NCBI GenBank assembly: GCA_016806145.1
Contig: CP063166.1
Coordinates: 3,286,001-3,350,000 of the forward strand
DNA from: Variovorax paradoxus
Lineage (GTDB): Bacteria; Pseudomonadota; Gammaproteobacteria; Burkholderiales; Burkholderiaceae_C
DNA: 64,000 nt
Direction of reading: 5' to 3'
A model generated the notes under the pieces. That model was given only the letters and a program-made list of their open reading frames with translations. It was not told where the DNA came from and ran no database searches. How positions within the stretch are numbered: the first letter of the stretch is position 1; the number at the start of each line of letters is the position of its first letter. Positions 11,399-54,094 of this stretch are shown in pieces. The position numbers and the translations under genes are program-made.

Positions 11399-11616
11399 CG
11401 AGGTCTCCGCTTTCCCGAGAAGATGAACCCGCCAGCCTAGACCGCCCACAAGTCGCCGCGATGTCGCGAACCCGGGTGCGCGGTGCCTGTCATGGGTCGG
11501 TCATGTCAGCCGAATAGCCTCAGGCCGCGAACATCGATCCAGGCCGCGAGGCGGACGGCCGCGCCCATCGCCCACTTTCTCCCCGCAGCACCTTTCCTGC
11601 CTTCTTCCTCCGCCTC

Positions 11617-12351
11617 ATGACACGTGCTTCCGCCTCGGGCCGTGCCCTGTCGCTGTCCTGGTGCCTCGTCGTGCTGCTGATGATGGGCGCGCGCTTCGCG
11701 CACGCGCAACTGCCCGGTCCGCGCGAAGCGGCCGGCGCGCTGAATTTCGACCTTCGGGCGCAGCCGCTGCAGGACGCGCTGGCCGAGTTCGCGCGCATCA
11801 CCGGCCATTCGGTGCTGGTCAGCAGCAGCCTGACCGCGGGCCGCGACGCTGCGTCGGTGCAAGGGCGCCTCGCGCCGCGCGAGGCGCTGCGGCAGCTGCT
11901 CACGGGCTCGGGCCTGGTGGCGCGCTATGTCGGCGAACAGTCGTTCACGCTGGTGCCCGAGTTCGAGGCGGAGGCGAACGCGCCGGCCGCCCCGCGCGAC
12001 GAGGCCCCCGTCGGCAGCGACCAAGCCGCCGCCGAGCTGCGCGCCTATGCGGCCCCGCTGCAATCCTCGATCACGCGCGTGCTGTGCATCGCGCAGCCCG
12101 ATGCCTTCGGCCGCTACCGCCTCGGCGTGCAGTTGTGGATCGGCGCCGACGGCGCGGTGCGCGACATCCGGGTGCTCGAGGGCAGCGGCCAGCGGGAGCG
12201 CGACGCGCGCGTGTTGCGCAGCCTGCGCGATCTGGTGGTGGATGCACCGCCGCCGACGCTGCGGCAGCCGATCACGATCCTGCTGACGCCGCGCACCGAC
12301 CCGGCGCGCGATTGCCGGCCCCATCGGCGCGATGGAGCCCGCGCGGGCTGA
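11617..12351 (+). CDS. Periplasmic STN-domain protein with TonB-C-like C-terminus
   Basis: This 244-residue protein has a signal peptide (residues 1-30, ending AHA). Residues about 42-113 are an STN domain (FDLRAQPLQDALAEFARITGHSVLVSSSL...), the signalling module normally found at the N-terminus of TonB-dependent transducers. It is followed by a linker and, at about 165-222, a TonB-C-like fold (LGVQLWIGADGAVRDIRVLEGSG...PPPTLRQPITILL). There is no plug or barrel. It directly precedes an ECF sigma factor and a FecR gene, so it probably feeds a signal to FecR in the periplasm. Its end overlaps the region of the sigma-factor start. Confidence 0.85.
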   Translation: MTRASASGRALSLSWCLVVLLMMGARFAHAQLPGPREAAGALNFDLRAQPLQDALAEFARITGHSVLVSSSLTAGRDAASVQGRLAPREALRQLLTGSGLVARYVGEQSFTLVPEFEAEANAPAAPRDEAPVGSDQAAAELRAYAAPLQSSITRVLCIAQPDAFGRYRLGVQLWIGADGAVRDIRVLEGSGQRERDARVLRSLRDLVVDAPPPTLRQPITILLTPRTDPARDCRPHRRDGARAG

Positions 12352-12361
12352 GGGAGCGCCG

Positions 12362-12922
12362 ATGCCCGACCGCTTCAAGGCCGCGCTGCGGACGCTGTTC
12401 CTCGCGCGCTACGCCCAGTTCCGCAAGCACCTGCACATGCGGCTGGGCTCGGAGGACCTGGCCAACGACGCGCTGCAGGAAACCTTCCTGCGGGTGGAGA
12501 ACAGCACCGTGCGCAGCGAGGTGCGCTATCCCTCGGCCTACCTGTTCCGCATCGCGCTCAACGTGGCCGAGGACCAGCGCAAGAGCAACGCGCGCCTGCT
12601 GAGCGTGGGCGAGGTCGAGGCGCTCTACGACATGGCCGACGAGATGGCCGACCCGGCGCGCGGCGCCGAGGCGCGCGACCAGCTCGCGGCGCTCGAGCGC
12701 GCGCTGGCCGAGCTGCCGCGCCGGCGCAAGGCGATCGTGCTGGCCGCGCGCGTGGACGAGATGCCGCACAAGGACATCGCCACGCGCTACGGCGTGTCGG
12801 TGCGCACGGTCGAGAAGGAATTGCGCGCCGGTCTCGAGCATTGCTGCGAGCGATTGGGCCGGGATTTCATCCAGCGCTTCGGTCCTGGCGCGGGAAAACA
12901 GTCGAAGCAAGATGAAGGCTGA
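12362..12922 (+). CDS. ECF RNA polymerase sigma factor, FecI-like
   Basis: This 186-residue sigma-70-family factor has region 2 (ARYAQFRKHLHMRLGSEDLANDALQETFLRV...YLFRIALNVAEDQRKS) and region 4 (LAELPRRRKAIVLAARVDEMPHKDIATRYGVSVRTVEKELRAGLEHC), the latter with the helix-turn-helix typical of FecI-type factors. ATG 12362 is chosen because GGGAG lies 6-7 nt upstream; an ATG at 12332 would overlap the previous gene. The FecR gene follows with an 11-bp overlap. The likely targets are the exoprotein and transporter genes, which share an identical upstream element. Confidence 0.92.
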   Translation: MPDRFKAALRTLFLARYAQFRKHLHMRLGSEDLANDALQETFLRVENSTVRSEVRYPSAYLFRIALNVAEDQRKSNARLLSVGEVEALYDMADEMADPARGAEARDQLAALERALAELPRRRKAIVLAARVDEMPHKDIATRYGVSVRTVEKELRAGLEHCCERLGRDFIQRFGPGAGKQSKQDEG

Positions 12923-13933
12923 CAACGATGAAGCCGCGCCCTTCGACGAACCTGGAGATCCCGACGCGATGAAGACCCTGCAACGCGAAGCCCAGGCCTG
13001 GGCGGTGCGGCTGGCCTCGGGCCAGGCCGACGAGGACGACGCGCGCGCCTTCAAGGCCTGGTGCGCGCGCAGCCGCGCGCATGCGCAGGCCTTCGCGCAG
13101 GCGCGCGAGGTCTGGCGCGCGATGGCGCCGGCCGGGCTGCAGCTGCGCCGGCAGGAAGAGCGCGCCGTGCGCCACCGGCTGCGTCGTCGCCGGGCCGCCG
13201 CGCCTGGCTCGGCGGCGCGGTGGCGGCCTCGGTCGCCTACCTCGCGGTGTCGCCGCCGCTCGGGCTCTGGTCGCCGGTGACCGACTGGAACGCCGACTAC
13301 AGCACCGCCACCGGCGAGCAGCGCGAGGTGCGCGTGGCCAACGGCGTGGTGCTGCAACTCAACACGCGCACGCGCGTGAACCTGCGCCGCGCGGCGGGCG
13401 ATGGCGGCGGGGGCGACAGCGTCGAACTGGTGGCTGGCGAGGCCGAGTTCGACAACGAGGCCCCGGCAGGCGCGCGCTTCATGGTCACGGCCGCGGGCGG
13501 CACGGTGTCGGCGCAGCGCGCGCGCTTCAACCTGCGCAACCTCGACGGCGAGGTCTGCGTGACCTGCCTGTCGGGCCAGGTCGAGGTGGCGCGCGGCACG
13601 CAGCGCGTGCGGCTCGAAGAAGGGCGCCAACTGCGCTGGAGCGCGGCCGGCCTGGGCGCGGTCGCGGCGGTCGACACCGGCGCGGTCAGCGCCTGGCGCC
13701 GGCGCCAGCTGGTGTTCGACCGGGTGCCGCTTTCGGAGGTGGTGGCCGAGGTCAACCGCTACCGCCATGGCCGGCTGCTGATCACCAACGCGGCGCTGGG
13801 GCGCACCAGGGTGCAGGCCAGCTTCTCGATCGACCGGCTCGACGACGTGGCCTTCCTGGTGCGCGACGTCTATGGCGCCGAGCTCACGCAGCTGCCGGGC
13901 GGCATCGTGCTGCTGGGCCTGGCGAGCGCCTGA
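12912..13933 (+). pseudogene. FecR-family anti-sigma regulator, interrupted by an apparent 1-nt loss
   Basis: The first part, read from ATG 12912, encodes the cytoplasmic DUF4880-type region (AQAWAVRLASGQADEDDARAFKAWCARSRAHAQAF). The rest of the protein is in the -1 frame: a membrane segment (AWLGGAVAASVAYLAVS, about 13200-13252), the periplasmic FecR domain (ATGEQREVRVANGVVLQLNTRTRVNL) and a C-terminal DUF4974-like part (RVPLSEVVAEVNRYRHGRLLI), ending at 13933. The switch lies within about 13180-13205, in a CG-rich run. It may be a real mutation, an assembly indel or, less likely, programmed frameshifting. If real, sigma control would be abnormal. Confidence 0.8.
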
Positions 13934-13959
13934 GCGCCGCGGGTGGCGCGCCGGGTTCG

Positions 13960-13987
13960 TGAAGTTTTCGTGACATGGTGCAGTCGC
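13960..13987 (+). promoter_or_regulatory. Conserved upstream element of the exoprotein gene (candidate ECF promoter)
   Basis: TGAAGTTTTCGTGACA, 5 nt, CAGTCGC. The identical 16-mer and heptamer with identical spacing occur upstream of the transporter gene at 27773-27800. It lies 81 nt before the exoprotein ATG. TGAAG and CAGTC are 16 nt apart, fitting -35/-10 spacing for an ECF factor. A GTCATA at about 14002-14007 is a weaker alternative -10. Confidence 0.6.
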
Positions 13988-14068
13988 GTCGCGGCTTCGC
14001 TGTCATAGCTCGGTAGACCACGAGGCCGCGGGCCTCGCGGCATCGATCGAGCAACGCAACACGAACCC

Positions 14069-26000: not shown

Positions 26001-27658
26001 CGCTGGGCGCCGTGGTCGACGTGAAGCCCGGCGACCGCAGCAGCGGCGCCAGCGTGGCGGTGTCGGCCGGCATGGGCGCGGGCGCCGACTGGCAGGCCTT
26101 CGCGAAGCGCTACCTCGATCCGGCCAACCTGGCCGATCCGGGCCAGCCGCTGGCCGACCAGCCAGGCAAGGCGGTGGCGCTCTACCACGGCGCGCTGTCG
26201 CTCGCGCAATGGCTGCAGCGCGAGTTCGGCTACGAAGGCGGCGAGGCCGGCGCCGACGCCTTCCTGGGGCGCAAGCAGGTGGAGCTCGACCGCGCGCGCC
26301 AGCAGGCGCTGTCGCGCGGCGACAGCGCGCCCAACCGTTCGCTGGCGCGCGAGTACAGGCTCGAGAGCCGGCTGCATCTGGTCAACTGGCTCACGGATCG
26401 CTTCGGCAAGGCCAACCGCCTCGGCCTGCACTTCGACGCCGCCACCATGGACGCGCGCGCCTTCTTCGCCGCGCTGCCGGCCGAGCAGCAACGCGCCTTC
26501 CTGCGCAACGTCTACTACGCCGAGCTCAAGGCCTCGGGCCGCGAGTACAACGAGGAGGGCGGCAAGCGCCGCGGCAGCTACCTGCGCGGCCGCGAGGCCA
26601 TCGCGACCCTGCTGCCCGACACCGACGCCGAAGGCCGCCCGCGCAGCTACGAGGGCGACCTCACGCTGTTCAGCAGCGCGCTCTACATCGACGGCTACGT
26701 GGTCAGCAACGGCGTCGGCAAGGACCGTCCGACGCCGGGCAAGACCTACATCAGCAAGGCCGAGTGGGAGGCGCTGGGCAGCCCGGGCTACGACGTGAAC
26801 TTCTACGACGTGCTCGACGCCGGCATCCACACCCAGTTCGGCGGCGACGTGCACGTGATGACGCCGGGCGGGCGCACGCTGGTGGGCGTGGACGGCGGCT
26901 TCGTGCCCGGTCCGGGCTCGGGCGTGATGACGCAGGGGGAGGGCGACATCAACATCTACGCCCACGGCAGCATCCTGATGGGCCAGAGCCGCGTGTTCAC
27001 CACCTTCGGCGGCAACATCCTGGGCTGGTCGGCCGGGGGCGACATCAATGCCGGGCGCGGCGCCAAGACCACGGTGGTCTACACCCCGCAGCGGCGCGTC
27101 TACGACGGCGTGGGCAACGTCACGCTGTCGCCCAACGCGCCGACCACCGGCGCGGGCATCGCCACGCTGAACCCGATCGCCGAGATCCCGCCGGGCGACA
27201 TCGACCTGATCGCGCCGCTGGGCACCATCGACGCGGGCGAGGCCGGCATCCGCGTGTCGGGCAACGTGAACCTCGCGGCGCTGCACGTGGTGAACGCCGA
27301 GAACATCCAGGTGCAGGGCAAGTCCACCGGCATCCCGGTGGTGGCGGCGGTCAACGTGGGCGCGCTTTCGAACGCCAGCGCGGCGGCCGCGCAGGCCGGC
27401 ATCGCGGCGCAGGACTCGCTGCAGCGCGAACGCGCCGAGGCGAGGAAGGCCTTGCCCTCGGTGTTCACCGTGCGCGTGCTGGGCTTCGGCAACGAGGCGC
27501 CCGAAGGCGCGCCGGCCGGCGGCGGCGCGCGCGAACGCGGCACCACCGGCGCCGCCTACGACCCCCAGGGCGTGGTGCAGGTGCTCGGCGCCGGCGCGCT
27601 GACCACCGCGCAGATGCAGTCGCTGACGCCGGGCGAGCGCCGCAACCTGAAGCCATAG
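14069..27658 (+). CDS. Giant filamentous-haemagglutinin-family TPS exoprotein (TpsA, DUF3739 type)
   Basis: This 4,529-residue secreted protein has an extended signal peptide (hydrophobic core about 31-45, cleavage near AQA50). A haemagglutination-activity/TPS domain lies at about 145-290 ([29 protein letters not shown] in place of NPNGI). Thousands of residues of Gly/Asn/Asp-rich beta-helix-type sequence follow. Residues about 3,007-3,120 are rich in LPAG-type repeats, about 4,008-4,200 form a helical insert, and the C-terminus (about 4,240-4,430) matches DUF3739 ([39 protein letters not shown]). It is predicted to be threaded through the TpsB-type pore encoded next and to act as a surface adhesin. 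ATG 14081 is an alternative start. Confidence 0.95.
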
Positions 27659-27696
27659 CACGAAGGACCGCGCGGCTCGCGCTGCGTCATCACAGC

Positions 27697-27727
27697 AAGG
27701 GCCTCCCGCGTGGAGGCCCTTCTTCTT
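27697..27727 (+). terminator. Intrinsic terminator after the exoprotein gene
   Basis: AAGGGCCTCC (27697-27706) pairs perfectly with GGAGGCCCTT (27712-27721) around CGCGT and is followed by a pyrimidine/T-rich tail (CTTCTT). It lies 38 bp past the exoprotein stop and separates it from the transporter gene. Confidence 0.75.
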
Positions 27728-27772
27728 GGGCGCGTCGAAAGCCGCATGCAGGACCCGTCCGACTTTTCTTGA

Positions 27773-27800
27773 TGAAGTTTTCGTGACAAACGACAGTCGC
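27773..27800 (+). promoter_or_regulatory. Conserved upstream element of the transporter gene (candidate ECF promoter)
   Basis: TGAAGTTTTCGTGACA, 5 nt, CAGTCGC, identical in both blocks and spacing to 13960-13987. It lies between the exoprotein terminator and the transporter start (102 nt to the ATG). This suggests that the two partners are separately transcribed but co-regulated. GCGTCTAG at 27820-27827 resembles an ECF -10 and is an alternative. Confidence 0.6.
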
Positions 27801-27902
27801 CGCGCTTCCCGGGCGTCTAGGAAACGTACGCAGCGGCGACATGAAGGCTCTCCACCATGGGCCGCTGCCGAGCGAGCTTCATCCTTGAGAACCGAGCTGG
27901 AC

Positions 27903-29573
27903 ATGCATGACTTGAAGAAGAACGCCCCACCGATGTGCTGGAGAGCGGTGTGGCTGGCAGTGCTGGCGCTGAGTGCGCACGGCGTCGCGTCGGCGCAGGC
28001 CGCCGCACCCGCCGACACCCGGGCCCTGAACCAGAACCCGCCCCCCGCGGCCGCGGCCGTCGCCGCGCCGGCCGCACCCGAACGAAAGGTCGACGTCACC
28101 GAATACATCGTGCGCGGCAACACCGCGCTGGACGCCCGCGCGATCGAGAAGGCGGTCACGCCCTTCCTCGGTCCCGAGCGCACGCTCAAGGACATCGAGG
28201 GCGCGCGCGACGCGCTGCTCGCCGCCTACCAGGCCGCCGGCTACCAGTCGGTCTACGTGGACCTGCCCGAACAGCAGGTCGCGCAGGGCGTGGTGTTCCT
28301 GCAGGTCAGCGAGACCCGCGTGGGCCGCGTGCGCGTGGTCGGCGCCGAGTACAACTCGCCGCTGGACGTGCGCGACCAGGTGCCCGCGCTGCGGGAGGGC
28401 ACGGTGCCCGACTTCAACAAGGCCCAGTCGCAGCTCGCCGCGCTCAACCGCGGCCCGAAGCGGCAGGTGATGCCGCTGGTGCGCCAGGGCGCGATGCCCG
28501 GCACCATGGACGTGGACCTCAAGGTCGAGGACCAGAGCCCGTGGCGCGCCAGCGTCGGCCTCAACAACGACTACAGCGCCGACACGCGCAAGCTGCGCGC
28601 CTCGGCCTCGATCGGCCACGACAACCTGTGGCAGCTCGGGCACAGCGCCTCGATCAGCTTCTTCGGCGCGCCGCAGGACCTGAAGCAGACGCAGGTGGTG
28701 TCGGCCTCGTACCTGGCGCCGCTGCCGAACAGCAACTGGGCGCTCGAGGGCTCGGCCTTCTGGTCCGACAGCAACGTGGCCACCGTGGGCGGCACCGACG
28801 TGCTCGGCAAGGGCCACTCGCTCGGCCTCAAGGCCACCTACACGGTGCCCAACGCCGGCAACTGGTGGCACTCGTTCAGCGCCGGCTTCGACCTCAAGAA
28901 CAACCGCGAGGCGCTCACGCTCAAGAACAGCAGCGACGAGGTGCCGCTCAAGTACGCGCCGATCACGCTGTCGTACTCGGGCCTGCGCCAGGCCGAGAAG
29001 AGCCAGTACGGCGTGGGCGTGTCGCTGGTGATCGGCACGCGCAGCTTCTTCAGCTACGGCAGCGACCAGCTGCAGTTCGACTACAAGCGCTACAAGTCCT
29101 CGCCGAGCTTCATGGTGCTGAAGACCGACCTCAACGGCACCTACACCTTCGACGGTGGCTCGCAGTTGGCCTTCCGCTTCAACGGCCAGTTGACCGACTC
29201 GCCGCTGGTGTCGAGCGAGCAGATCGCCGGCGGCGGCATGAACTCGGTGCGCGGCTATCTCTCGGCCGAGGCCACCGGCGACTACGGCGTGGTCGGCTCG
29301 ATCGAATGGCGCACGCCGCCGCTGACCTGGCTCAACCCCTGGGTCGAGGGCTGGCGCGCCTATGCCTTCTTCGACGGCGCGCGCCTGCGCCTGAAGAACC
29401 CGCTGCCCGAACAGGCCGACCGCTTCGCGCTCGCCTCGGTGGGCCTGGGCACCACCTTCAAGGTCGGCCCGTACTTCTCGGGCCGCATCGATGTCGGCCG
29501 ACCGCTGAAGGACGGCCCGCGCACGAAGAAGGGCGACACGCAGGTCAATTTCAGCATCAACGCCAGCTACTGA
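27903..29573 (+). CDS. TpsB outer-membrane transporter, ShlB/FhaC/HecB family
   Basis: This 556-residue partner transporter has a signal peptide (about 1-32) and a Pro/Ala linker. Two POTRA-like domains follow (about 64-138, VTEYIVRGNTALDARAIEKAV...VFLQVSE, and 139-215), then a barrel starting near SPWRASVGLNNDYS with the conserved VRGY motif of the L6 loop (449-452, GGMNSVRGYLSAEATGD). The protein ends in an aromatic residue. It should recognise the TPS domain of the upstream exoprotein in the periplasm and export it. ATG 27930 is a possible alternative start. It has its own upstream element at 27773-27800. Confidence 0.95.
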   Translation: MHDLKKNAPPMCWRAVWLAVLALSAHGVASAQAAAPADTRALNQNPPPAAAAVAAPAAPERKVDVTEYIVRGNTALDARAIEKAVTPFLGPERTLKDIEGARDALLAAYQAAGYQSVYVDLPEQQVAQGVVFLQVSETRVGRVRVVGAEYNSPLDVRDQVPALREGTVPDFNKAQSQLAALNRGPKRQVMPLVRQGAMPGTMDVDLKVEDQSPWRASVGLNNDYSADTRKLRASASIGHDNLWQLGHSASISFFGAPQDLKQTQVVSASYLAPLPNSNWALEGSAFWSDSNVATVGGTDVLGKGHSLGLKATYTVPNAGNWWHSFSAGFDLKNNREALTLKNSSDEVPLKYAPITLSYSGLRQAEKSQYGVGVSLVIGTRSFFSYGSDQLQFDYKRYKSSPSFMVLKTDLNGTYTFDGGSQLAFRFNGQLTDSPLVSSEQIAGGGMNSVRGYLSAEATGDYGVVGSIEWRTPPLTWLNPWVEGWRAYAFFDGARLRLKNPLPEQADRFALASVGLGTTFKVGPYFSGRIDVGRPLKDGPRTKKGDTQVNFSINASY

Positions 29574-29651
29574 TCACCGAACCCGAATCAGAACGCGGCA
29601 ACGCCCCTTTCAAGAATTTTTTTTCCACGAGCTTTCCGGAGAACCCCTGTC

Positions 29652-31529
29652 ATGCGACGCTTTCTTTTCCTCGCGCTCACGCTGTTGAGCACGCTCCTGC
29701 CGGGCCTGGCCCATGCATGGTGGCAGCCCGAATGGGCCTATCGCAAGCCGATCACCGTGGACGGCGGCCCGCAGGCCGGCGCCATCGGCAGCGACGCCGG
29801 CCGCGTGCCGGTGCTGGTTCGCCTGCACACGGGCAACTTCAAGTTCGAAGGCGTGAGCGAGACCGGTGCCGACCTGCGCTTCGTGGCCGGTGACGACAAG
29901 ACCGTGCTCAACCACCAGATCGAGCAGTTCGATCCGCTGCTGGGCATCGCGCTGGTCTGGGTCGACGTGCCCAACGTCTCGGCCGGCACGCCGCAGAAGC
30001 TCTGGATGTACTACGGCAACCCCAAGGCCCCGGCCTCGGGCAACGGCCAGCGCAGCTTCGATCCCGACTACACGCTGGTCTACCACTTCGCCGAAGGCGC
30101 GGTGCCGCCGCGCGACACGACCGCCTACGGCAACAACGGCCAGACCCCGACCGTGCCGGCCGAAGGCACGGTGATCGGCAAGGGCGCGCAGTTCGCCGGC
30201 GCGCCGCTGATGCTGCCCGCCACGCCTTCGCTGGCACTGGCCGCCGGTTCCAGCTTCACCTTCTCCGCCTGGGTGCGGCCCGACCAGCTCGGCGCGCGCC
30301 AGGTGATCTATGCGCGCCGCGACGGCACGGGCGAACTGCTGGTCGGCATCGACCAGGGCGTGCCCTTCGTGCAGGTCAACGGCCAGCGCAGCACCCCGGC
30401 GCAGCCGGTGCAGGCCGGCCAGTGGTCGCACATCGCGGTCAAGGCCGAGGGCGACAGCGTCGCGCTGTACGTCGGTGGCCGCCCCGCGGTGTCGCTGGCC
30501 GCGCGCCTGCCGGCGCTGAACACGGCCGCCGCGCTGGGCGCCGACGTGGCCGCCGCCGCGGCCGCACCGGCCGCCGGCCAGGCCGCGCCCGCCGCCTGGG
30601 CGCCGTTCACCGGCGCGATCGACGAAGTGCGCCTGTCGAAGGTCGCTCGCGGCGATGCGCTGCTGCTGGCCGACGCCGTCTCGCAAGGCGCCGAATCGCG
30701 CCTCACGGCCTTCGGTGCCGACGAGCAGCAGGCCGGCAAGAGCCACTTCGGCTTCATCCTGGCCGCGATGCCGCTGGACGCCTGGATCGTCGTCGGCCTG
30801 CTGGGCCTGATGATGGTGCTGTCGTGGGCCATCATGATCGGCAAGGGCCGCAGCTACGGCGCCACCTCGCGCGCCAATGCCCGCTTCATCGAGCACTTCC
30901 GCGAAGCCGCCGGCGCGCCGCTGGACCGCCTCGCGATCAGCAACACCGTGTCGCAGCAAGTCCGCGACGACTCCTCGCTGTGGCGCCTGTACCAGGTGGC
31001 GATCGAGGAGATGCGCCGCCGCCACGACCGCGGCTACGACCTGAGCGCCGTGTCGAGCGCGACCATCGGCGCCATCCGCGCCGCCATGGACGGCGTGATG
31101 GTGCGCGAGACCGAACGCATGTCCAAGCGCATGAACTGGCTGTCGACCACCATCGAGGGCGCGCCCTACGTGGGCCTGTTCGGCACCGTGATCGGGATCA
31201 TGCTGGTGTTCGTGGTGGCGGCGATGGCCGGTGCCGTGGACATCAACTCGGTGGCACCCGGCATGGCGGCCGCGCTGCTGTGTACCGCCGCCGGCCTGGG
31301 CGTCGCGATCCCCGCGCTGTTCGGCTACAACTGGCTGGCCTCGCGCTCGGACGCCATCGGCGCCGACATGGCGGTGTTCGTCGACGAGTTCGTGACGCGC
31401 CTGGCCGAAGAGCAGGGCGAGGGCAGGTCGCTGCCGGCCGCCGTGGCGGCCCAGGGCGGCGCGCGCCGCACGGCCGACGACAACGCGGCACGCGGCGGCT
31501 GGACCTCGCCGGCACAAGTCCCGGCCTGA
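29652..31529 (+). CDS. DUF2341-LamG-MotA/TolQ/ExbB fusion protein
   Basis: This 625-residue protein has a signal peptide (1-22), a DUF2341 domain (about 23-135: WWQPEWAYRKPITVDG, LWMYYGNPKA) and a LamG/concanavalin-like beta-sandwich (about 140-335: FTFSAWVRP, GQWSHIAVKA, FTGAIDEVRLSK). These are followed by a MotA/TolQ/ExbB proton-channel region with membrane segments at about 376-396, 503-526 and 535-560 (EGAPYVGLFGTVIGIMLVF, the signature ExbB/TolQ motif). The sugar- or protein-binding modules lie in the periplasm. It probably forms a proton-driven motor with the adjacent ExbD and TonB. A good CCGGAG ribosome-binding site precedes the ATG. An octa-T run at 29617-29624 lies just upstream. 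Confidence 0.93.
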   Translation: MRRFLFLALTLLSTLLPGLAHAWWQPEWAYRKPITVDGGPQAGAIGSDAGRVPVLVRLHTGNFKFEGVSETGADLRFVAGDDKTVLNHQIEQFDPLLGIALVWVDVPNVSAGTPQKLWMYYGNPKAPASGNGQRSFDPDYTLVYHFAEGAVPPRDTTAYGNNGQTPTVPAEGTVIGKGAQFAGAPLMLPATPSLALAAGSSFTFSAWVRPDQLGARQVIYARRDGTGELLVGIDQGVPFVQVNGQRSTPAQPVQAGQWSHIAVKAEGDSVALYVGGRPAVSLAARLPALNTAAALGADVAAAAAAPAAGQAAPAAWAPFTGAIDEVRLSKVARGDALLLADAVSQGAESRLTAFGADEQQAGKSHFGFILAAMPLDAWIVVGLLGLMMVLSWAIMIGKGRSYGATSRANARFIEHFREAAGAPLDRLAISNTVSQQVRDDSSLWRLYQVAIEEMRRRHDRGYDLSAVSSATIGAIRAAMDGVMVRETERMSKRMNWLSTTIEGAPYVGLFGTVIGIMLVFVVAAMAGAVDINSVAPGMAAALLCTAAGLGVAIPALFGYNWLASRSDAIGADMAVFVDEFVTRLAEEQGEGRSLPAAVAAQGGARRTADDNAARGGWTSPAQVPA

Positions 31530-31539
31530 GGCGACGCAC

Positions 31540-31950
31540 ATGCCCAACGCAGCCAAGTTCGCCGTGCGCAAGCGCACCGGCGGCATCAACATCACGCCGT
31601 TCGTGGACGTGCTGCTGGTCGTGCTGGTGATCTTCATCCTCACCAGCAACGCCAGCATTCCGGGCATCAAGGTCGACCTGCCGAAGGCCAGTTCCTCGGT
31701 GGCGCTGGAGAAGCCCAAGACCAAGGCCATCACGATCGACAACGCGGGCAACGTGTTCCTCGACGCCTACCCGGTGTCGCTGCCGGAGCTCGAGGAGCGC
31801 CTGCGCACCGAGAAGGCCCTGTCGCCCGACTTCCCCGTCATCGTGCGCGGCGATTCGAGCGTGCAGTACGCCAAGGTGGTCGACGTGCTGGACCTGCTGC
31901 GCCGCATCGAGCTGAACCAGATCGGCCTCGTGACCGGCAAGCAGAAGTGA
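31540..31950 (+). CDS. exbD: ExbD/TolR-family proton-channel protein
   Basis: This 136-residue protein has a short cytoplasmic N-terminus, one membrane helix (about 19-38) with the essential protonatable Asp at D23 (INITPFVDVLLVVLVIF), and a periplasmic TolR-like domain (KAITIDNAGNVFLDAYPVSLPELEERL...VIVRGDSSVQYAKVVDVLDLLRRI). It pairs with the ExbB-like protein 10 bp upstream and the TonB-like protein 10 bp downstream, so the three make one energy-transducing complex. Confidence 0.95.
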   Translation: MPNAAKFAVRKRTGGINITPFVDVLLVVLVIFILTSNASIPGIKVDLPKASSSVALEKPKTKAITIDNAGNVFLDAYPVSLPELEERLRTEKALSPDFPVIVRGDSSVQYAKVVDVLDLLRRIELNQIGLVTGKQK

Positions 31951-31960
31951 GGACCGGCGC

Positions 31961-32707
31961 GTGAAACCTCGCGATCCGACTTTCGCCTTCGTGGGCCGCG
32001 CCGCGGCCGGCGGCGGCGCGCCCGCCGACGCGCACGCGCTGTGGCGCCGTTGGGGCGGCTGGGCCATCGGCACGGTGCTGCTGGCGCTGCTGGCGGCGCT
32101 CGTGTGGTATCTGCTGGCCGACACCGCGAGCCAGAAGCGCGTGGTGGCCGACGCTCCCACGCTGATGCTGCCGCCGCCTCCGCCCCCGCCGCCCGAACCC
32201 GAGAAGCTGCCCGAGCCCGAGCCGGAAAAGATCAAGCCGGTGACCGAGCCCGAGCCCAAGCCGATCGAGCCGCTGGAGCCGCCGAAGGACGACACGCCGC
32301 CCAGTCCCACCAAGGACCTCGGCGACCCCGTGACCATGGACAGCGCCGCGCAGGCGGGCAGCGATGCCTTCGGCATCCAGGCCGGCAGCGGCGGCGGCAT
32401 GAGCGGCACCGGTGCCGGCGGCGGCCTGGGCAGCGGCTCGTTCTCGCGCTATGCCGCGAGCGTGCTGCAGCAGGCGCTGCTGCGCGACCCGCGCACCCGC
32501 AACCTGGGCTTCGACGACATCCAGATCGACATCTGGCTCGACGCCGAGGGCCGGACCACGCGGGCGCAGCTGGTGCGCGGCACCGGCACCACCGACATCG
32601 ACGAAGCGGTGCTGGCGATGGTGCGCGGCCTCGAGCGCTTCGACGAGAAGCCACCGGCCTCGCTGCGCTTTCCGATGCGCGTGTCCATGAAGGGGCGCCG
32701 GCAGTGA
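31961..32707 (+). CDS. TonB-like energy transducer
   Basis: This 248-residue protein begins at GTG 31961 just after a GAGGA site. It has an N-terminal membrane anchor (about 33-53), a Pro/Glu/Lys-rich spanning region (71-117, with eight consecutive Pro), a Gly-rich hinge (139-160) and a C-terminal TonB-C-like domain (161-245, IQIDIWLDAEGRTTRAQLVRGTGTTDIDEAVLAM). It should carry ExbB/ExbD-derived force to an outer-membrane partner. No TonB-dependent receptor is encoded in the locus, so the partner may be the putative porin, the TpsB pore or the STN protein. Confidence 0.9.
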   Translation: MKPRDPTFAFVGRAAAGGGAPADAHALWRRWGGWAIGTVLLALLAALVWYLLADTASQKRVVADAPTLMLPPPPPPPPEPEKLPEPEPEKIKPVTEPEPKPIEPLEPPKDDTPPSPTKDLGDPVTMDSAAQAGSDAFGIQAGSGGGMSGTGAGGGLGSGSFSRYAASVLQQALLRDPRTRNLGFDDIQIDIWLDAEGRTTRAQLVRGTGTTDIDEAVLAMVRGLERFDEKPPASLRFPMRVSMKGRRQ

Positions 32708-32757
32708 CGCACGCCGAAGCCCCGCCCATCCCCCCATTCAATCCTGTGAACGAAGCG

Positions 32758-34548
32758 ATGAACCCCTCCAAACATTCCCCCGCCCGACGCCTCGCGCCGG
32801 CCCTGCGCCAGGGCGCGCTGGCCGCCGCGGTGGCCGCGGCCTTCGCGCTGGCCGCGGGCGGCGCCACCGCCCAGCCGGCCCCGGCCGGCGAGACCGCCAT
32901 GGTCAAGCTGATCCGCGGCCTGATCCAGAGCGGCACGCTCGCCAAGGACGTGGGCGAGGCGCTGCTGGCGCAGGCCCAGGCCGAAGCCATGGCCTCGCAG
33001 CAGGCCCAGCAGCGGCTGGCCGCCGTGTCGGCCGGTGCCGTGGCCGGCGCCAGCGCCGGTGGCCTGCGGCTCGAGCCGGGCGACGTGCGCGTGCCCTACA
33101 TCTCGCAGACCGTGCGCGACCAGATCCGCGACGAGGTCAAGGCCCAGGTCATGGCGCAGGCCAAGGACGAAGGCTGGGCCGCGCCCAACGAAACGCCCGA
33201 GTGGAGCAAGCGCATCCGCTTCGAAGGCGACGTGCGCGTGCGCAACGAGTCGCGCAGCTATGCGGGCAACAACAGCAACATCGAGATCAACTGGCCCGAG
33301 CTCAACAAGGGCAGCGGCTACGACGTCAACCCCAACACCAACCTCGCGCTGCCCTCGCTGCTCAACACGCGCCAGGACCGGCGCAACCTGTTCCGCGCGC
33401 GGGCCCGCGTGGGCATCCTCGCGGACCTCAGCGAGAACACCAAGGCCGGCGTGCGCCTGGCCTCGGGCAGCGACGAGAGCCCGGTGTCGACCACCCAGAC
33501 CCTGGGTGGCGGCCTGAGCAAGAAGAGCGTGTGGCTCGACCAGATGTGGATCTCGCACAAGCCGGTCGACTGGCTCACCGTCACGGGCGGCCGCTTCGGC
33601 AACCCCTTCATGTCGACCGACACGCTGTTCTCGAGCGACCTCAACTTCGACGGCATCGCGTTCCAGTTCGACAAGGCGCTGGCGAGCAACAAGGACCTGT
33701 CGCTGTTCGGCACGCTGGGCCTGATCCCGCTCGAGTACTCCTCGGACAACGCGCCCAGCCGCAGCCAGGACAAGGCCAGGAGCGAGAACAAGTGGCTGTT
33801 CGGCGCGCAGGTCGGCGCCGACTGGAAGATCGACGACGACAACCGCCTGCGCGGCGCGCTCGCGTACTACAACTTCCGCAACATCAGCGGCAAGGTCTCC
33901 GAGCCCTGCGCGCTGTACGCGGGCGCCGACGGCTGCAGCACCGACTGGTCGCGTCCGGCCTTCATGCAGAAGGGCAACACGCTCATGCTGCTGCGCGACA
34001 TCTCGCTCGACCCGCTCAACCCGGCCGGCACGCCGCAGCCGCAGTACGTGGGCCTGGCCTCGAAGTTCCGCCTGGTCGACCTGAACATGCGCTGGGACAC
34101 CCAGGTCGCGGGCAACAACCTGCGGCTGGACGCCAACTTCATCCGCAACACCGCCTACGACGCCAACGACATCTGGCGCCGCGCGGGCATCCGCGGCGCC
34201 ATCGTCAACAACTTCGGCAACGGCGGTGGTACCGGCCAGGCCGACTACAAGAGCGGCGGCAACGCCTTCATGCTGCAGGCCACCTACGGCCGCCCGGCGC
34301 CGGCCGCGCGCGGCGACTGGAACGTGCTCGCGGGCTACAAGCGCATCGAACCCGATGCGCTGCCCGATGGCTACAACGACTCGACCTTCCATGGCGGCGG
34401 CACCAATGCGCGCGGCTACTTCCTCGGCGGTTCGTACGCGTTCGACAAGAACCTCTGGTTCACCGGCCGCTGGATCTCGACCAAGGAGGTCTATGGTCCG
34501 CCGCTGTCGATCGACACGCTGCAGCTCGAACTCAATGCGCGCTTCTGA
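32758..34548 (+). CDS. Putative porin (outer-membrane beta-barrel)
   Basis: This 596-residue protein has a signal peptide (about 1-38, ending GATAQ), an N-terminal helical part (AMVKLIRGLIQSGTLAKDVGEALLAQAQAEAM) and a long barrel with alternating hydrophobic strands (IRFEGDVRVRNESRS, NLFRARARVGILADLSENTKAGVRLASG, KSVWLDQMWISHKP). It ends in Phe, the usual barrel C-terminus. It matches the putative porin family seen in other proteobacteria. GTG 32704 overlaps the tonB stop and is also in frame, but the signal peptide supports ATG 32758. It may be the outer-membrane client of the TonB-like protein. Confidence 0.9.
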   Translation: MNPSKHSPARRLAPALRQGALAAAVAAAFALAAGGATAQPAPAGETAMVKLIRGLIQSGTLAKDVGEALLAQAQAEAMASQQAQQRLAAVSAGAVAGASAGGLRLEPGDVRVPYISQTVRDQIRDEVKAQVMAQAKDEGWAAPNETPEWSKRIRFEGDVRVRNESRSYAGNNSNIEINWPELNKGSGYDVNPNTNLALPSLLNTRQDRRNLFRARARVGILADLSENTKAGVRLASGSDESPVSTTQTLGGGLSKKSVWLDQMWISHKPVDWLTVTGGRFGNPFMSTDTLFSSDLNFDGIAFQFDKALASNKDLSLFGTLGLIPLEYSSDNAPSRSQDKARSENKWLFGAQVGADWKIDDDNRLRGALAYYNFRNISGKVSEPCALYAGADGCSTDWSRPAFMQKGNTLMLLRDISLDPLNPAGTPQPQYVGLASKFRLVDLNMRWDTQVAGNNLRLDANFIRNTAYDANDIWRRAGIRGAIVNNFGNGGGTGQADYKSGGNAFMLQATYGRPAPAARGDWNVLAGYKRIEPDALPDGYNDSTFHGGGTNARGYFLGGSYAFDKNLWFTGRWISTKEVYGPPLSIDTLQLELNARF

Positions 34549-34558
34549 GGACGTCGCC

Positions 34559-35320
34559 GTGGCCCGATCCCATTTCAAGACACCCGCGCTCGCCCTGGCG
34601 CTCGTGCTCGTCGGCCTGGCCGGCGGCGCGCACGCCCAGGGCGCGCCGGCCGCGGCCGGTGCGCAGAGCATGGAAGAACGGCTGCGCGCGCAGCTGCGCA
34701 TCACGACCTCGCAGCTGCAGCAGGCGCAGAACGAGCTGGCCGCGCTCAAGGCCGGCAAGCCCGCGGCCGCGGCACCGGGCGCGCCCGCGCCCGCACCGGC
34801 GGCCGAAGTCGAGGCGTTGCGCAAGGACCTCGCGCGCGCCCTGTCCCAGCTCGCCGGCGAACGCCAGGCGCGCGAGCAGGCGAGTGTCGGCGTCGAGCAG
34901 ATCCGCCAGCAGGCGCAGGCCGCGGCCGAGAAGTCCGGCGGCCAGATCGCGCAGTTCCGCAGCGCCTACGAGGAGCTGCTGCGCACCGCGCGTGCCTCCG
35001 AGGCCGAGCGTCAGCGCCTCGTGGCCGAGACCGGCACGCAGCGCACTGCGCTCACCCAGTGCGAGGCGAAGAACACGCAGCTCTATGCCGTGGGCCAGGA
35101 GGTGCTGCGCGCCTACGAGACCATGGACATGGGCAGCGTGTTCGCCGCGCGCCAGCCGTTCGCGGCCCAGAGCCGCGTGAAGTTCGAGCAGATCGCGCAG
35201 CAGTACGGCGACAAGCTCTACGAAGGCCGCTTCGACGCGCGCGCCGTCAACGCACCCAAGCCGGCCGAGGCCGCGGCCACGCCGCCGGCCGCGGCCGCCT
35301 CGGCACCCGCCGCGAAGTGA
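34559..35320 (+). CDS. Periplasmic coiled-coil protein
   Basis: GTG 34559 is chosen because GAGGA lies 8 nt upstream; ATG 34535 would overlap the porin gene. The 253-residue product has a signal peptide (about 1-27) and long Gln/Glu/Ala-rich helices predicted to form a coiled coil (about 38-60 and 80-160: SMEERLRAQLRITTSQLQQAQNELAALKAG, EVEALRKDLARALSQLAGERQAREQ). A conserved C-terminal part follows (LTQCEAKNTQLYAVGQEVLRAYETM) with an Ala/Pro-rich tail. It may tether or scaffold the envelope complex; no enzymatic motif is seen. Confidence 0.82.
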   Translation: MARSHFKTPALALALVLVGLAGGAHAQGAPAAAGAQSMEERLRAQLRITTSQLQQAQNELAALKAGKPAAAAPGAPAPAPAAEVEALRKDLARALSQLAGERQAREQASVGVEQIRQQAQAAAEKSGGQIAQFRSAYEELLRTARASEAERQRLVAETGTQRTALTQCEAKNTQLYAVGQEVLRAYETMDMGSVFAARQPFAAQSRVKFEQIAQQYGDKLYEGRFDARAVNAPKPAEAAATPPAAAASAPAAK

Positions 35321-35342
35321 GCGGCCAGAAGGAACCCAGCCC

Positions 35343-36284
35343 ATGAACCCGAAGAAACCCCTTGCTCCCGCGCGCCTGCGCACGCTGGCCGCGCTGCTGC
35401 TGGCCGCGTCGACCTGCCTCGGCGCCGCGGCGCAGCAGATCGCCGCGCCCGGCGGCGCGCCGGTGGTCGCTCGCCTGGGCGAACTCACCGTGCGCCAGGA
35501 CGAGGTCGAGAAGCTGCTGCAGGCCTTGCCCGATGCCGAGCGCGCGGCCGTCAAGGACAACCGCGCCAGCGTCGAGGGCTGGCTGCGCCAGCGGCTGCTC
35601 GGCGAGGCGCTGCTGAAGGAGGCACGCGACAAGGGCTTCACCGACAGGCCCGAGGTCAAGGCCAAGATCGACGCCGCGGTGCGCGAGCTCACGGCCCGCA
35701 TCGTGACCACCGGCTACCTCGAGTCGGTGAGCCAGGTGCCGGCGGGCTATCCGTCGGATGCCGAGCTCACCGCCGCCTACGAGCAGGGCAAGGCCGGCTT
35801 CAACCTGCCGGCCACCTACCGCGTGGCACAGATCTTCCTCGCCACCCCTGACACCGCGCCCGCGGCCGTCGCCAAGGTGCGCGAGGAAGCCCAGAAGCTG
35901 GCGCGCGAGGCGCGCGCCAGCGACTTCGCGGCGCTCGCGCGCGCGAAGTCGCAGGACAAGAGCAGCGCCGAGCGCGGCGGCGAGGTCGGCAACCTGCCGC
36001 TCGCGCGCATGCTGCCCGAGGTGCGCGATGCCGTCGGCAAGCTCAAGACCGGCCAGGTCGGCGAGCCGGTGCAATCGGCCGCCGGCTTCCACGTCGTGAA
36101 GCTGCTCGAGAGCCAGCCCGCGCGCACCGCCACGCTCGACGAGATGCGCCCGCAGCTGCAGGCCGCGCTGCGCCAGCAGCGCCAGCAGCAGCTGATCCAG
36201 GCCCACCTGGCGCAGCTCGCGCCGGCCACGCAGCTGAGCATCGATGCCGCAGCGCTCGACGCCGCGCTGCGCAAGACGAACTGA
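35343..36284 (+). CDS. Periplasmic parvulin-type peptidyl-prolyl isomerase (PpiC/SurA-like)
   Basis: This 313-residue protein has a signal peptide (about 1-31), an N-terminal SurA-like helical region (VARLGELTVRQDEVEKLLQALP...LRQRLLGEALLKEAR) and one parvulin domain (about 155-260: YRVAQIFLATPD, SAERGGEVGNLPLARMLPEVRDAVGKLKTGQVGEPVQSAAGFHVVKLLE). It catalyses prolyl isomerisation and acts as a chaperone for outer-membrane or secreted proteins. Its position suggests a dedicated chaperone for the exoprotein, transporter or porin. Confidence 0.92.
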   Translation: MNPKKPLAPARLRTLAALLLAASTCLGAAAQQIAAPGGAPVVARLGELTVRQDEVEKLLQALPDAERAAVKDNRASVEGWLRQRLLGEALLKEARDKGFTDRPEVKAKIDAAVRELTARIVTTGYLESVSQVPAGYPSDAELTAAYEQGKAGFNLPATYRVAQIFLATPDTAPAAVAKVREEAQKLAREARASDFAALARAKSQDKSSAERGGEVGNLPLARMLPEVRDAVGKLKTGQVGEPVQSAAGFHVVKLLESQPARTATLDEMRPQLQAALRQQRQQQLIQAHLAQLAPATQLSIDAAALDAALRKTN

Positions 36285-36328
36285 ACCCACCAACAACCAA
36301 CAACCACCGTCCACAGACAGGGAACCTC

Positions 36329-36871
36329 ATGACGAACACCCCGACCGACACCACCACTTCCGCAGCCACGTCCGCCGAAGCCCTCGACCTGCTCGACGCG
36401 GTAACGCCCGAACAGGTCTCCGACGCCATCAAGGCCGCCGGCGCCGCCGTCTCCACCATCGAACAGGACGGCGTGATCCGCCTGCACAGCGCCAGCCACG
36501 GCATCGGCTTCCAGGTGCTGTGGGGCAATCCCGTCACCACCACCCAGTACACCGACTTCACCTTCAGTTGCCCGCTGCACGTGCAGGGCGGCACCTTGCC
36601 CGAGGCCGTGCTGGCCGCCTGGCACCGCAGCAAGCGCTTCGCGCGCGTCGCGCAACACGGCGACTTCGTGGTGCTCGAGATGGACGTGGTGGTCGCCGGC
36701 GGCGTGACGCCCGCGCACCTCGCGTTCAGCGCGCGCCTGTGGATGCAGATGATGGGCGAGTTCTTCCTGCACCTGCGCAACTACGGCCCGGCCGCCGCCA
36801 CGCGCGGCGACGCTGCCAATGGCGCAGCGCCGGCCGCCGGTGCTGCAGACCGGGTCGAAGCCGCCGCCTGA
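36329..36871 (+). CDS. YbjN-family protein
   Basis: This 180-residue protein fits the YbjN domain (fold related to type III secretion chaperones): VTPEQVSDAIKAAGAAVSTIEQDGVIRLHSASHGIGFQVLWG...TDFTFSCPLHVQGG...LEMDVVVAGGVTPAHLAFSARLWMQMMGEFFLHL. There is no signal peptide, so it is cytoplasmic, and the C-terminal tail is Ala-rich. In this locus a chaperone-like role is a reasonable guess but unproven. It starts at ATG 36329 behind a weak AGGGAA site and follows the PPIase by 44 bp. Confidence 0.82.
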   Translation: MTNTPTDTTTSAATSAEALDLLDAVTPEQVSDAIKAAGAAVSTIEQDGVIRLHSASHGIGFQVLWGNPVTTTQYTDFTFSCPLHVQGGTLPEAVLAAWHRSKRFARVAQHGDFVVLEMDVVVAGGVTPAHLAFSARLWMQMMGEFFLHLRNYGPAAATRGDAANGAAPAAGAADRVEAAA

Positions 36872-36897
36872 GCGCGCGCCGAACGCATCCCAGCGCG

Positions 36898-37131
36898 ATG
36901 CCCGAAAGCCTTCGTTCCGCGGAGTCCTTCGACGGCCACGATTCGCCGACGCTGCGCGCGATCCACGCCACCGCGCGCCAGGTGCAGCGCGCGCGGCGCG
37001 CGGAGACCGTGCGGCTGCGGCAGCGCGAGGCGCTGCTCGACATGCTCGCGCGCGTCATGGCCGACCTGCACATCACCAACGCCGAGCTCAATGCCGCGCG
37101 GCGCGCGCTCGCGCCGACGCGGCCGAAGTGA
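36898..37131 (+). CDS. Small basic helical protein, hypothetical
   Basis: A 77-residue predicted protein from ATG 36898, almost entirely helical with a strongly basic middle (ATARQVQRARRAETVRLRQREALLDMLARVMADLHITNAELNAARRAL). There is no signal peptide. It follows the YbjN gene by 26 bp, and its stop overlaps the next possible start by GTGA, which supports it as part of the operon. Function unknown. Confidence 0.6.
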   Translation: MPESLRSAESFDGHDSPTLRAIHATARQVQRARRAETVRLRQREALLDMLARVMADLHITNAELNAARRALAPTRPK

Positions 37132-37426
37132 GCGTCGTGCCATCGCCGCACGCGTCGGCCCTCGCGGCGATCGCCTGCGCGGCGCTGCCCGCCGCGACGA
37201 TCCCGGTGTTCTCCGAGGCCCATGGCTCGCTGCAGCGCATGGCCGATCGCTCGGCCGTGCTGGGCAACGCGCTCCCCGCGCGTGCGCGCCGAGACCGCCG
37301 CGCATCAAGCACTTCCTGCGCGACAACGGCGTGGCCTGCGGCGAGAGCGACACCCCGCAGCTCGGCCCCCGGCAGTCGCCGGCCGCGCGCGCCGCCACGC
37401 TGTCGGTCGGCGTGCTGTGCGGCTGA
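37128..37426 (+). pseudogene. Possible small secreted protein gene, apparently frameshifted
   Basis: GTG 37128 overlaps the previous stop and opens a frame with a hydrophobic start (ALAAIACAALPAATIPVFSEAHGSLQRMADRSAVLGNALPAR). Good coding sequence then resumes in the -1 frame (RIKHFLRDNGVACGESDTPQLGPRQSPAARAATLSVGVLCG) up to TGA 37424-37426. The switch lies around 37270-37300, near a CCCC run. A 1-nt loss, real or an assembly artefact, would explain it. The product would be about 98 residues. No family recognised. Confidence 0.4.
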
Positions 37427-37464
37427 GCCGGCAGCGTTTTCCAGAACCGTCCCCGAAAGAACGC

Positions 37465-37947
37465 ATGTTCCCCTCGCACCGTCATTCCGCCGCCGCGCCG
37501 CGGCCCTGGGCCAGCCTGTTCCGCGCGCTCGGCCTCGCCGGCCTGGGCCTGGCGGCCGTGCACATGCCCGTGCAGGCCCAGCCCGCGCCCTCGGCGCGCG
37601 CGCCGGTGCCGCAGCACTGGCTCCGCTATGCCGAGCGGGCCGGCAACCAGTTCCAGGGTCGGCTCAGCGATCCCGCCGACGAGACCGTGCAGCGCCTCCA
37701 TGCCTGGATGCAGCAGCGCCTGCTCGAAGAGGGCCGCACCCTGCCGCCGCCTCCGCTGATCGTGCGCGTCTGGGTCGCCCTCGACGGCCGGCCCGAGCGC
37801 GTGGCCTTCGATTCGCTGGGCAATGCGCAGGCCGATGCCGACCTGCGCCAGCTGCTGATTGCGCAGCCGCTGTCGGAGCCGCCGCCGCGGGACATGCGGC
37901 AGCCGATGGTGTTGCAGCTGGCGTTGAAAGTGCTGGGGCCGGGTTGA
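37465..37947 (+). CDS. Secreted protein with TonB-C-like domain
   Basis: This 160-residue protein has a signal peptide (about 1-38, ending VQAQ). Residues about 98-152 (LIVRVWVALDGRPERVAFDSLG...PPPRDMRQPMVLQLAL) resemble the TonB-C-like end of the STN protein at 11617 and of the TonB-like protein at 31961, including the shared PPP..RQP near the end. It has no membrane anchor or Pro-rich spanner, so it cannot transduce energy alone. It may compete for or link TonB-type contacts in the periplasm. It appears to be the last gene of the locus, 19 bp from the convergent S41 peptidase gene. Confidence 0.72.
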   Translation: MFPSHRHSAAAPRPWASLFRALGLAGLGLAAVHMPVQAQPAPSARAPVPQHWLRYAERAGNQFQGRLSDPADETVQRLHAWMQQRLLEEGRTLPPPPLIVRVWVALDGRPERVAFDSLGNAQADADLRQLLIAQPLSEPPPRDMRQPMVLQLALKVLGPG

Positions 37948-39055: not shown

Positions 39056-39086
39056 GGCCGCGATGCTAAGGCAGCGGAAAAGGGCT

Positions 39087-39455
39087 TCAGCCCGCTGCCG
39101 CGAGGATGTCCTCGAGCGCGCCGATGTCGATCGGCTTCTGCAGATGATGGTCGAACAGCTTGCGTCCGTCGGGGCCGCCCGCGGCGCCGGCATCGGCGGC
39201 CGAGAAGCCCGAGATCGCGACCAGGAGCTTCGGCGCGCCCTGGGCCTCGGTCTCGCGCAGGCGGCGCGCGACCTGGGTGCCGGGGATGTCGGGCAGGGTG
39301 AGGTCGATCAGCGCGGCATCGAAGCGTTCGGCCGCGGCGGCGTCCAGGGCCTGTTGGCCGGTGTAGGTGCAGCGGGCGGTGTGGTCCTGCAGGGTCAGCA
39401 GTTCCTGCAGCAGGTCGGCTGCGGCTTCGTTGTCGTCGACGATCAGCACATTCAC
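39087..39455 (-). CDS. Single-domain response regulator
   Basis: A 122-residue stand-alone receiver domain. Acidic DD (LIVDDNE) binds Mg, phospho-acceptor D51 lies in ALIDLTLPD, Ser/Thr in LLVAISG and Lys in LQKPID. GTG 39455 is preferred because AAGGA lies just upstream; an extended start at ATG 39518 is possible. There is no output domain, so it signals through protein contacts, presumably with the kinases encoded just upstream in the same direction. Confidence 0.88.
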   Translation of the reverse strand: MNVLIVDDNEAAADLLQELLTLQDHTARCTYTGQQALDAAAAERFDAALIDLTLPDIPGTQVARRLRETEAQGAPKLLVAISGFSAADAGAAGGPDGRKLFDHHLQKPIDIGALEDILAAAG

Positions 39456-54060: not shown

Positions 54061-54094
54061 GCGGCCCCATTCCCACCCTTTGCGAACAGGAGAA

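Follow-up and report, generated by a model that had tools for sequence, protein, structure and literature searches.

A DUF3739 exoprotein of Variovorax paradoxus is inherited with a Ton-type motor and a Porin_5 protein

A 64,000-nucleotide stretch of the Variovorax paradoxus contig CP063166.1 (positions 3,286,001 to 3,350,000, assembly GCA_016806145.1; hereafter the window) carries a locus for a giant two-partner secretion (TPS) exoprotein, TpsA, together with its transporter TpsB, an ExbB-ExbD-TonB motor whose ExbB subunit is fused to DUF2341 and LamG domains, and an outer-membrane protein of the Porin_5 family. We found that these four components, TpsA, TpsB, the motor and Porin_5, are inherited as one set. 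A conserved motif in the C-terminal tail of TpsA further points to a mechanism in which TonB would grip this putatively periplasmic tail, and the motor would use the proton-motive force (PMF) to hold, finish, retract or release the adhesin. Judging from sequence comparisons and structure prediction, we give this reading a probability of about 0.38.

Co-inheritance of exoprotein, motor and porin

Two-partner secretion, in which TpsB exports TpsA, is taught as a passive process. ExbB, ExbD and TonB use the flow of protons to do work on partners in the outer membrane, which TonB contacts by binding a short strand. In the Variovorax locus both kinds of machinery are complete by their domains: TpsA has a TPS domain and TpsB has POTRA and ShlB barrel domains and a relative in the PDB, while the motor has the ExbD aspartate, the ExbB threonine and a TonB-type C-terminal domain. 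ExbD D23 and the threonine of the ExbB GTV motif are conserved in over 97% of the 98 sequences compared. For TonB, the Pfam TonB_C model scored under its cut-off, and profile matches to TolA, HasB and TonB chains were obtained at E-values of 0.001-0.02.

The association was measured in an even sample of the class, 369 genomes in all. Of these, 23 had DUF3739, the domain near the C-terminus of TpsA, above cut-off, and full-length DUF2341-ExbB was present, among the matches listed, in 22, namely 21 of the 23 DUF3739 genomes and one other (G104). In the two DUF3739 genomes lacking the motor (G101 and G200), DUF3739 lies no more than 0.6 kb from a contig end. Exoprotein and motor are at most 30 kb apart in 20 of the 21 genomes that have both, and on different contigs in the remaining one (G310). 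Full-length Porin_5 was found in 24 genomes, which are all 23 with DUF3739 and, again, G104. ShlB-type TpsB is much more widespread (153/369), and among the 132 TpsB genomes without DUF3739 above cut-off just G104 has the motor. Fisher tests of co-occurrence with DUF3739, uncorrected for kinship, gave P-values of 6e-31 for the motor and 1e-35 for Porin_5. In these counts 'full-length' was assigned by coverage and score; up to three DUF2341-ExbB candidates were scored per genome, with all full-length ones among the matches listed, and PF16930 (Porin_5) exceeded its cut-off in 49 genomes, with one genome in which DUF3739 scored under cut-off (G223) left out. A second sample of 398 genomes from the phylum contained 14 with DUF3739, 11 of them new, and the motor was present in all 11 (within 30 kb in eight), although its match in G633 is partial and at a contig edge. 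The co-occurrence rules out that the motor is a chance neighbour of the exoprotein. A preliminary description of the locus, made from its letters, had considered co-occurrence in related bacteria likely and proposed scoring motor genes within 30 kb of DUF3739; this expectation is strongly borne out, and the lack of conservation that it named as evidence against itself was not seen.

Gene order was compared in the best 80 of 146 related loci. Since these were fetched by the motor gene, their linkage counts lean toward motor linkage, which the counts from the 369 genomes do not. All 80 have tpsB upstream of the motor, and exbD follows the motor in 77, with tonB and the porin in 75 each, the coiled-coil gene and ybjN in 71 each and ppiC in 42. 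Where tonB is missing (five loci), the locus is on a short contig or ends at a contig edge. In distant genomes the order differs and the set persists, with the porin adjoining the motor in 16 of 17 loci and elsewhere on the contig in the 17th. Several exoproteins can accompany one motor: there are three TpsAs per motor in each of two genomes (G728 and G551) and two in the V. paradoxus host (G000; 9.44 Mb in three contigs). The second DUF3739 exoprotein of the host (L108; G000:C2:2466675-2467007) lies on another replicon and has the same tail motif; since a search of that replicon returned no TpsB or motor match, it probably shares the motor of the main locus. A large open reading frame (ORF) beside the host's other TpsB, presumed to encode a TpsA, has neither the tail motif nor a motor.

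The preliminary description had also stated that no experimental account of such a coupled system was known. This was wrong for the locus, because the same cluster has been described in P. aeruginosa as PUMA3 (PMC2729926, PMC4971064, PMC7035377). PUMA3 comprises vreA, vreI, vreR, pdtA, pdtB, exbB2, exbD2, tonB4 and PA0696-PA0699, where PA0696 is a putative porin, PA0698 a YbjN and PA0699 a PpiC protein (PMC2729926, PMC7035377). Judged by published gene content, the present locus is the Variovorax version of PUMA3/Pdt, with a vreA-like gene, genes for an extracytoplasmic function (ECF) sigma factor and a FecR-type anti-sigma factor, and then TpsA through to the PpiC and YbjN neighbours. All parts are common to both loci and a Pho box, putative in Variovorax, precedes vreA in both. 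The Variovorax locus differs in that neither Hxc type II genes nor phdA were seen among its genes, in the swapped order of ppiC and ybjN, and in having fecR in two frames. Seven Pseudomonas loci other than that of PAO1 (L077, L078, L080, L082-L084 and L087) keep the published order from tpsB onward, with tpsB to tonB followed by the porin, coiled-coil, YbjN and PpiC genes. The PUMA3 locus has been in print since 2009 and the cluster has been shown to be co-regulated, with some of its genes studied in mutants (PMC2729926, PMC4971064, PMC7035377), while its motor was still termed 'uncharacterized' in 2020. PUMA3 clusters in several other genera carry TPS, ExbBD and PA0696 homologues, and in R. 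palustris and Janthinobacterium a single tpsB-exbBD set is accompanied by multiple copies of tpsA (PMC2729926). The coupling of exoprotein and motor found here is much stricter than the available excerpts of these accounts state.

The C-terminal tail of TpsA and the motor

The last 105 or so residues of TpsA lie beyond DUF3739 and hold a linker and then the strand-like motif FTVRVLGFG, which in our view resembles a TonB box. All of 70 distinct TpsA ends fit a loose tail pattern and 62 fit a strict one; in eight of the 70, a single residue follows the motif. An alignment of 52 of these tails gave column counts of 51 for V, 49 for F and 49 for G, with less conservation in the flanking linker and downstream residues. 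Elsewhere, the strict pattern was absent from the other gene families of the locus, and shuffling produced it in six tails out of 14,000. Of 15 new TpsA ends (22 rows minus seven already seen or repeated), 10 had the strict form and 11 the loose one, and the strict form recurred in 88 of 101 database relatives outside the first set. The closest relative of the exoprotein is also from V. paradoxus (96% identity across the tail region), and in G728, a genome of the same genus, an exoprotein tail is identical to one from Variovorax sp. Root473. In an AlphaFold model of a 345-residue piece of TpsA, a confident beta-helix extends to residue 237 and is followed by low confidence, with a helix at 260-276; the predicted local distance difference test score (pLDDT) is below 50 over residues 278-313 of the piece, where the motif lies. 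Because it is conserved though predicted to be unfolded, and appears strand-forming, the tail motif looks like a linear binding motif.

The mechanism that we favour would run as follows. TpsB would thread TpsA outward, N-terminus first, leaving the tail past DUF3739 in the periplasm on its flexible linker. The tail strand would be offered to the C-terminal domain of TonB and added to its sheet in the way that TonB boxes are. A pentamer of ExbB, bearing a periplasmic DUF2341-LamG crown, would with ExbD convert the PMF into a pull or rotation on TonB, which could thereby hold the adhesin at the surface, complete its export, or retract or release it. Porin_5 may be an outer-membrane anchor, and one motor with one TpsB might serve several TpsAs. 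As a client of TonB, TpsB was considered and rejected, its conserved N-terminal segment being the start of POTRA1, with nothing TonB-box-like seen by eye.

A number of observations weigh against this mechanism. The loose and strict tail patterns were written after inspection of the 70 ends, and one strict match occurred among 1,854 other ORFs, many of which are not genes. Four of the 15 new ends miss the loose pattern (FTVRVLSTG, LTGSVVSFG, VIVDVLGYA and ILVDVLGLY), and 13 of 120 database relatives miss the strict form, most of these retaining V-x-V but not GFG. In P. aeruginosa, VreI-induced lethality in zebrafish was no lower with transposon mutants of PA0695 (the tonB homologue) or PA0696 (PMC2729926). 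Porin_5 is linked to the exoprotein at least as tightly as the motor is, and has a conserved periplasmic segment of its own. Finally, three genomes (G136, G119 and G150; loci L105-L107) have a second, diverged DUF2341-ExbB motor away from DUF3739 and Porin_5, so this type of motor has other uses. No DUF3739 exoprotein was found beside these second motors, and as a control for the tail they therefore speak neither for nor against it. The diverged DUF2341-ExbB/ExbD/TonB set of L106 (2403-16354) sits beside apparent type II secretion genes.

The wider proposal, that there is a class of PMF-coupled two-partner systems in which DUF3739 exoproteins carry a TonB-box-like tag, a dedicated, lectin-crowned Ton motor drives, retracts or holds an adhesin of more than 350 kDa across the outer membrane, Porin_5 is an obligate fifth part and several exoproteins can share one motor, is put forward tentatively, and we would regard it as somewhat doubtful. 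Since the motor is inherited with one subset of exoproteins that also carries the tail tag, the use of energy in two-partner secretion becomes a testable question. If true, the mechanism would provide a function for DUF2341-ExbB, DUF3739 and Porin_5, and for exbB2-exbD2-tonB4 of P. aeruginosa.

Alternative roles of the motor and precedents

The chief rival to TonB gripping the tail is that TonB acts on Porin_5, which would then form a channel, gated or energised, for a substance that the cell scavenges when starved of phosphate, with TpsA as a surface scavenger or scaffold. Such an arrangement would recall HxuA-HxuB-HxuC of Haemophilus, a two-partner exoprotein that cooperates with a Ton system, although HxuC is a true TonB-dependent receptor, unlike Porin_5 here, and to our knowledge the Hxu system has no dedicated motor. 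The distribution of Porin_5 described above is clear-cut, with scores of at least 466 bits in the 24 genomes and 118 for the next best match; tonB and the porin adjoin in all 75 loci that reach that far; the porin has near-invariant periplasmic residues V110, R111, V112 and Y114 (V-R-V-x-Y) ahead of its barrel; and the putative Pho box would suit a response to phosphate. In the porin itself, however, Pfam recognised Porin_5 only, with neither a plug domain nor a match to TonB-dependent receptors, no sequence relative was found in the PDB, and an action on the porin leaves the conserved tail of TpsA unexplained. We consider this alternative somewhat less probable than the grip on the tail; the observations fit either, and the TpsA tail and Porin_5 could also both be partners of TonB.

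A second possibility is that the tail is a protease guard that times the trimming or release of TpsA, with the motor serving a separate purpose. Its model is the giant TpsA FhaB of Bordetella, exported by FhaC, whose functional extreme C-terminus is an important control element that blocks CtpA until it is removed by DegP (PMC8263021). FhaB differs from the Variovorax exoprotein in this processing by DegP and CtpA, and the excerpted account mentions no linked motor (PMC8263021). A gene for a peptidase of family S41, to which the CtpA that trims FhaB belongs, is present at 37970-39193 on the minus strand, facing the locus, but its product has an IRBP-type N-terminal domain. This explanation leaves the constant presence of the motor unaccounted for, and we consider it improbable.

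It is similarly hard to believe that shared regulation alone holds the genes together, which would make the locus an envelope operon of phosphate starvation with parts that work independently. The whole cluster of P. aeruginosa is indeed under one sigma factor and PhoB (PMC4971064), but the co-occurrence holds despite altered gene order and in distant families, and regulation alone would permit the loss of single parts. Least probable of all is a feedback sensor in which the motor and the VreA-like protein signal unfinished exoprotein to the sigma switch: the domain make-up of that protein would fit, and the C-terminal domain of VreA has been speculated to meet outer-membrane partners (PMC2729926), but sigma-VreI is activated without a need for VreA in vitro and in vivo (PMC7035377) and not every motor has an adjoining STN gene.

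For the favoured mechanism, by which the motor would act on the exoprotein through its tail, the nearest functional precedent is SiiAB of Salmonella SPI4, a proton channel of the Mot/Exb kind that lies beside one giant adhesin, SiiE, and exerts PMF-dependent control over its retention at the surface (PMC6272769). The resemblance is in role only, since that system is MotAB-like, uses type I secretion and has no TonB, TpsB or porin; the Variovorax exoprotein is of the TPS and not the type I kind.

Layout of the locus and its sigma switch

From 11617 to 36871 all genes lie on the plus strand in the order of Table 1, as called from ORFs and Pfam/NCBIfam matches, in agreement with the preliminary description apart from fecR and the last gene. 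That description listed FecR as one gene; both of its domains are present, but they lie in different frames, DUF4880 in the one open over 12912-13280 and the FecR domain in the one open over 13061-13933. By tblastn, the two parts share one frame in 15 of 16 related loci that have both, the exception being L069. The split is either a real break, by which the sigma switch of this strain may be altered, or an error in the sequence. At the far end, an ORF is present where a 'TonB-C protein' had been named, probably starting at 37465, but its domain match and its rarity do not sustain the name. The VreA-like protein combines STN with a TolA/TonB-like C-terminus and has no barrel, as is the case for PUMA3 VreA, which has an N-terminal signalling domain and a TolA/TonB-like C-terminal domain (PMC2729926). 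The ORF of TpsB covers 27726-29573, with its probable start picked by eye.

Table 1. Features of the locus (window coordinates)
Feature	Position	Strand	Basis
Candidate Pho box (PhoB site)	11487..11504	+	One mismatch to CTGTCAT-N4-CTGTCAT
vreA-like gene, STN + C-terminal TonB_2	11617..12351	+	PF07660 and PF13103, both above cut-off
vreI-like ECF sigma factor	12332..12922	+	Sigma70_r2, Sigma70_r4_2
vreR/fecR-like anti-sigma gene, two frames	12912..13933	+	PF16220 (DUF4880), PF04773 (FecR)
TpsA exoprotein, 4,529 aa	14069..27658	+	TPS domain (residues 163-435), DUF3739
DUF3739 of TpsA, residues 4314-4424	27008..27340	+	PF12545, 131 bits
Linker past DUF3739, residues 4425-4460	27341..27448	+	Ala/Ser-rich, partly helical in AlphaFold model
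Tail motif FTVRVLGFG, residues 4466-4474	27464..27490	+	Conserved, TonB-box-like
TpsB transporter, POTRA_2 + ShlB	27903..29573	+	Pfam; relative of CdiB 6wim
DUF2341-LamG-MotA/ExbB fusion, motor subunit	29652..31529	+	PF10102, PF13385, PF01618; TolQ/ExbB among PDB relatives
ExbD/TolR-type motor subunit with D23	31540..31950	+	PF02472
TonB, Pro-rich spacer + TonB-family C-terminal domain	31961..32707	+	TIGR01352, 28.5 bits (cut-off 27.1)
Porin_5 outer-membrane protein, PA0696-like	32758..34548	+	PF16930, 642 bits
Coiled-coil protein, PA0697-like by position	34553..35320	+	In 71/80 related loci
PpiC-type prolyl isomerase, PA0699-like	35343..36284	+	PF00639
YbjN protein, PA0698-like	36329..36871	+	PF10722
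Small secreted protein, not core	37465..37947	+	Doubtful TonB_2 match, E = 0.2; 10/80 related loci

The putative Pho box, compared with CTGTCAT-N4-CTGTCAT, which we take to be the consensus, lies 113 bp ahead of the start codon of the vreA-like gene. At one mismatch or fewer it is the single match in the 64 kb of the window, and 100 shuffles gave none. With up to three mismatches, a site preceded 13 of 34 related STN genes, as compared with 16 of 636 control stretches. From the predicted Pho box ahead of the vreA-like gene we infer that phosphate starvation turns on production of the sigma switch. In P. aeruginosa the region ahead of vreA is bound by PhoB, and the promoter PphdA drives transcription of pdtB to PA0701 (PMC4971064). 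A pattern fitted to the Variovorax site had two exact matches genome-wide, one being the site itself; the other (L164; G000:C1:242048-242065) is about 160 bp ahead of a type VI secretion cluster (ImpA_N, VipA).

An attempt to read a role in phosphate uptake from neighbouring genes was abandoned: of the 116 candidate ORFs in 27 loci, 80 were compared with Pfam and fell into a scatter of families, two having PstS-like domains, and ten picked proteins included no phosphate family. Secreted proteins of about 500 residues without a Pfam match, whose N-terminus presumably resembles PstS, are encoded close to tpsB or tpsA in five loci (L100:10620-12122, L102:13764-15377, L111:12337-13836, L112:17485-19140 and L094:4053-5699). 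Another possible phosphate link is a phytase-like protein (PF13449) at window positions 59421-60653, 22 kb off. The window also encodes, at 53095-54637, a patatin-like protein followed by a protein with a ricin-type lectin domain.

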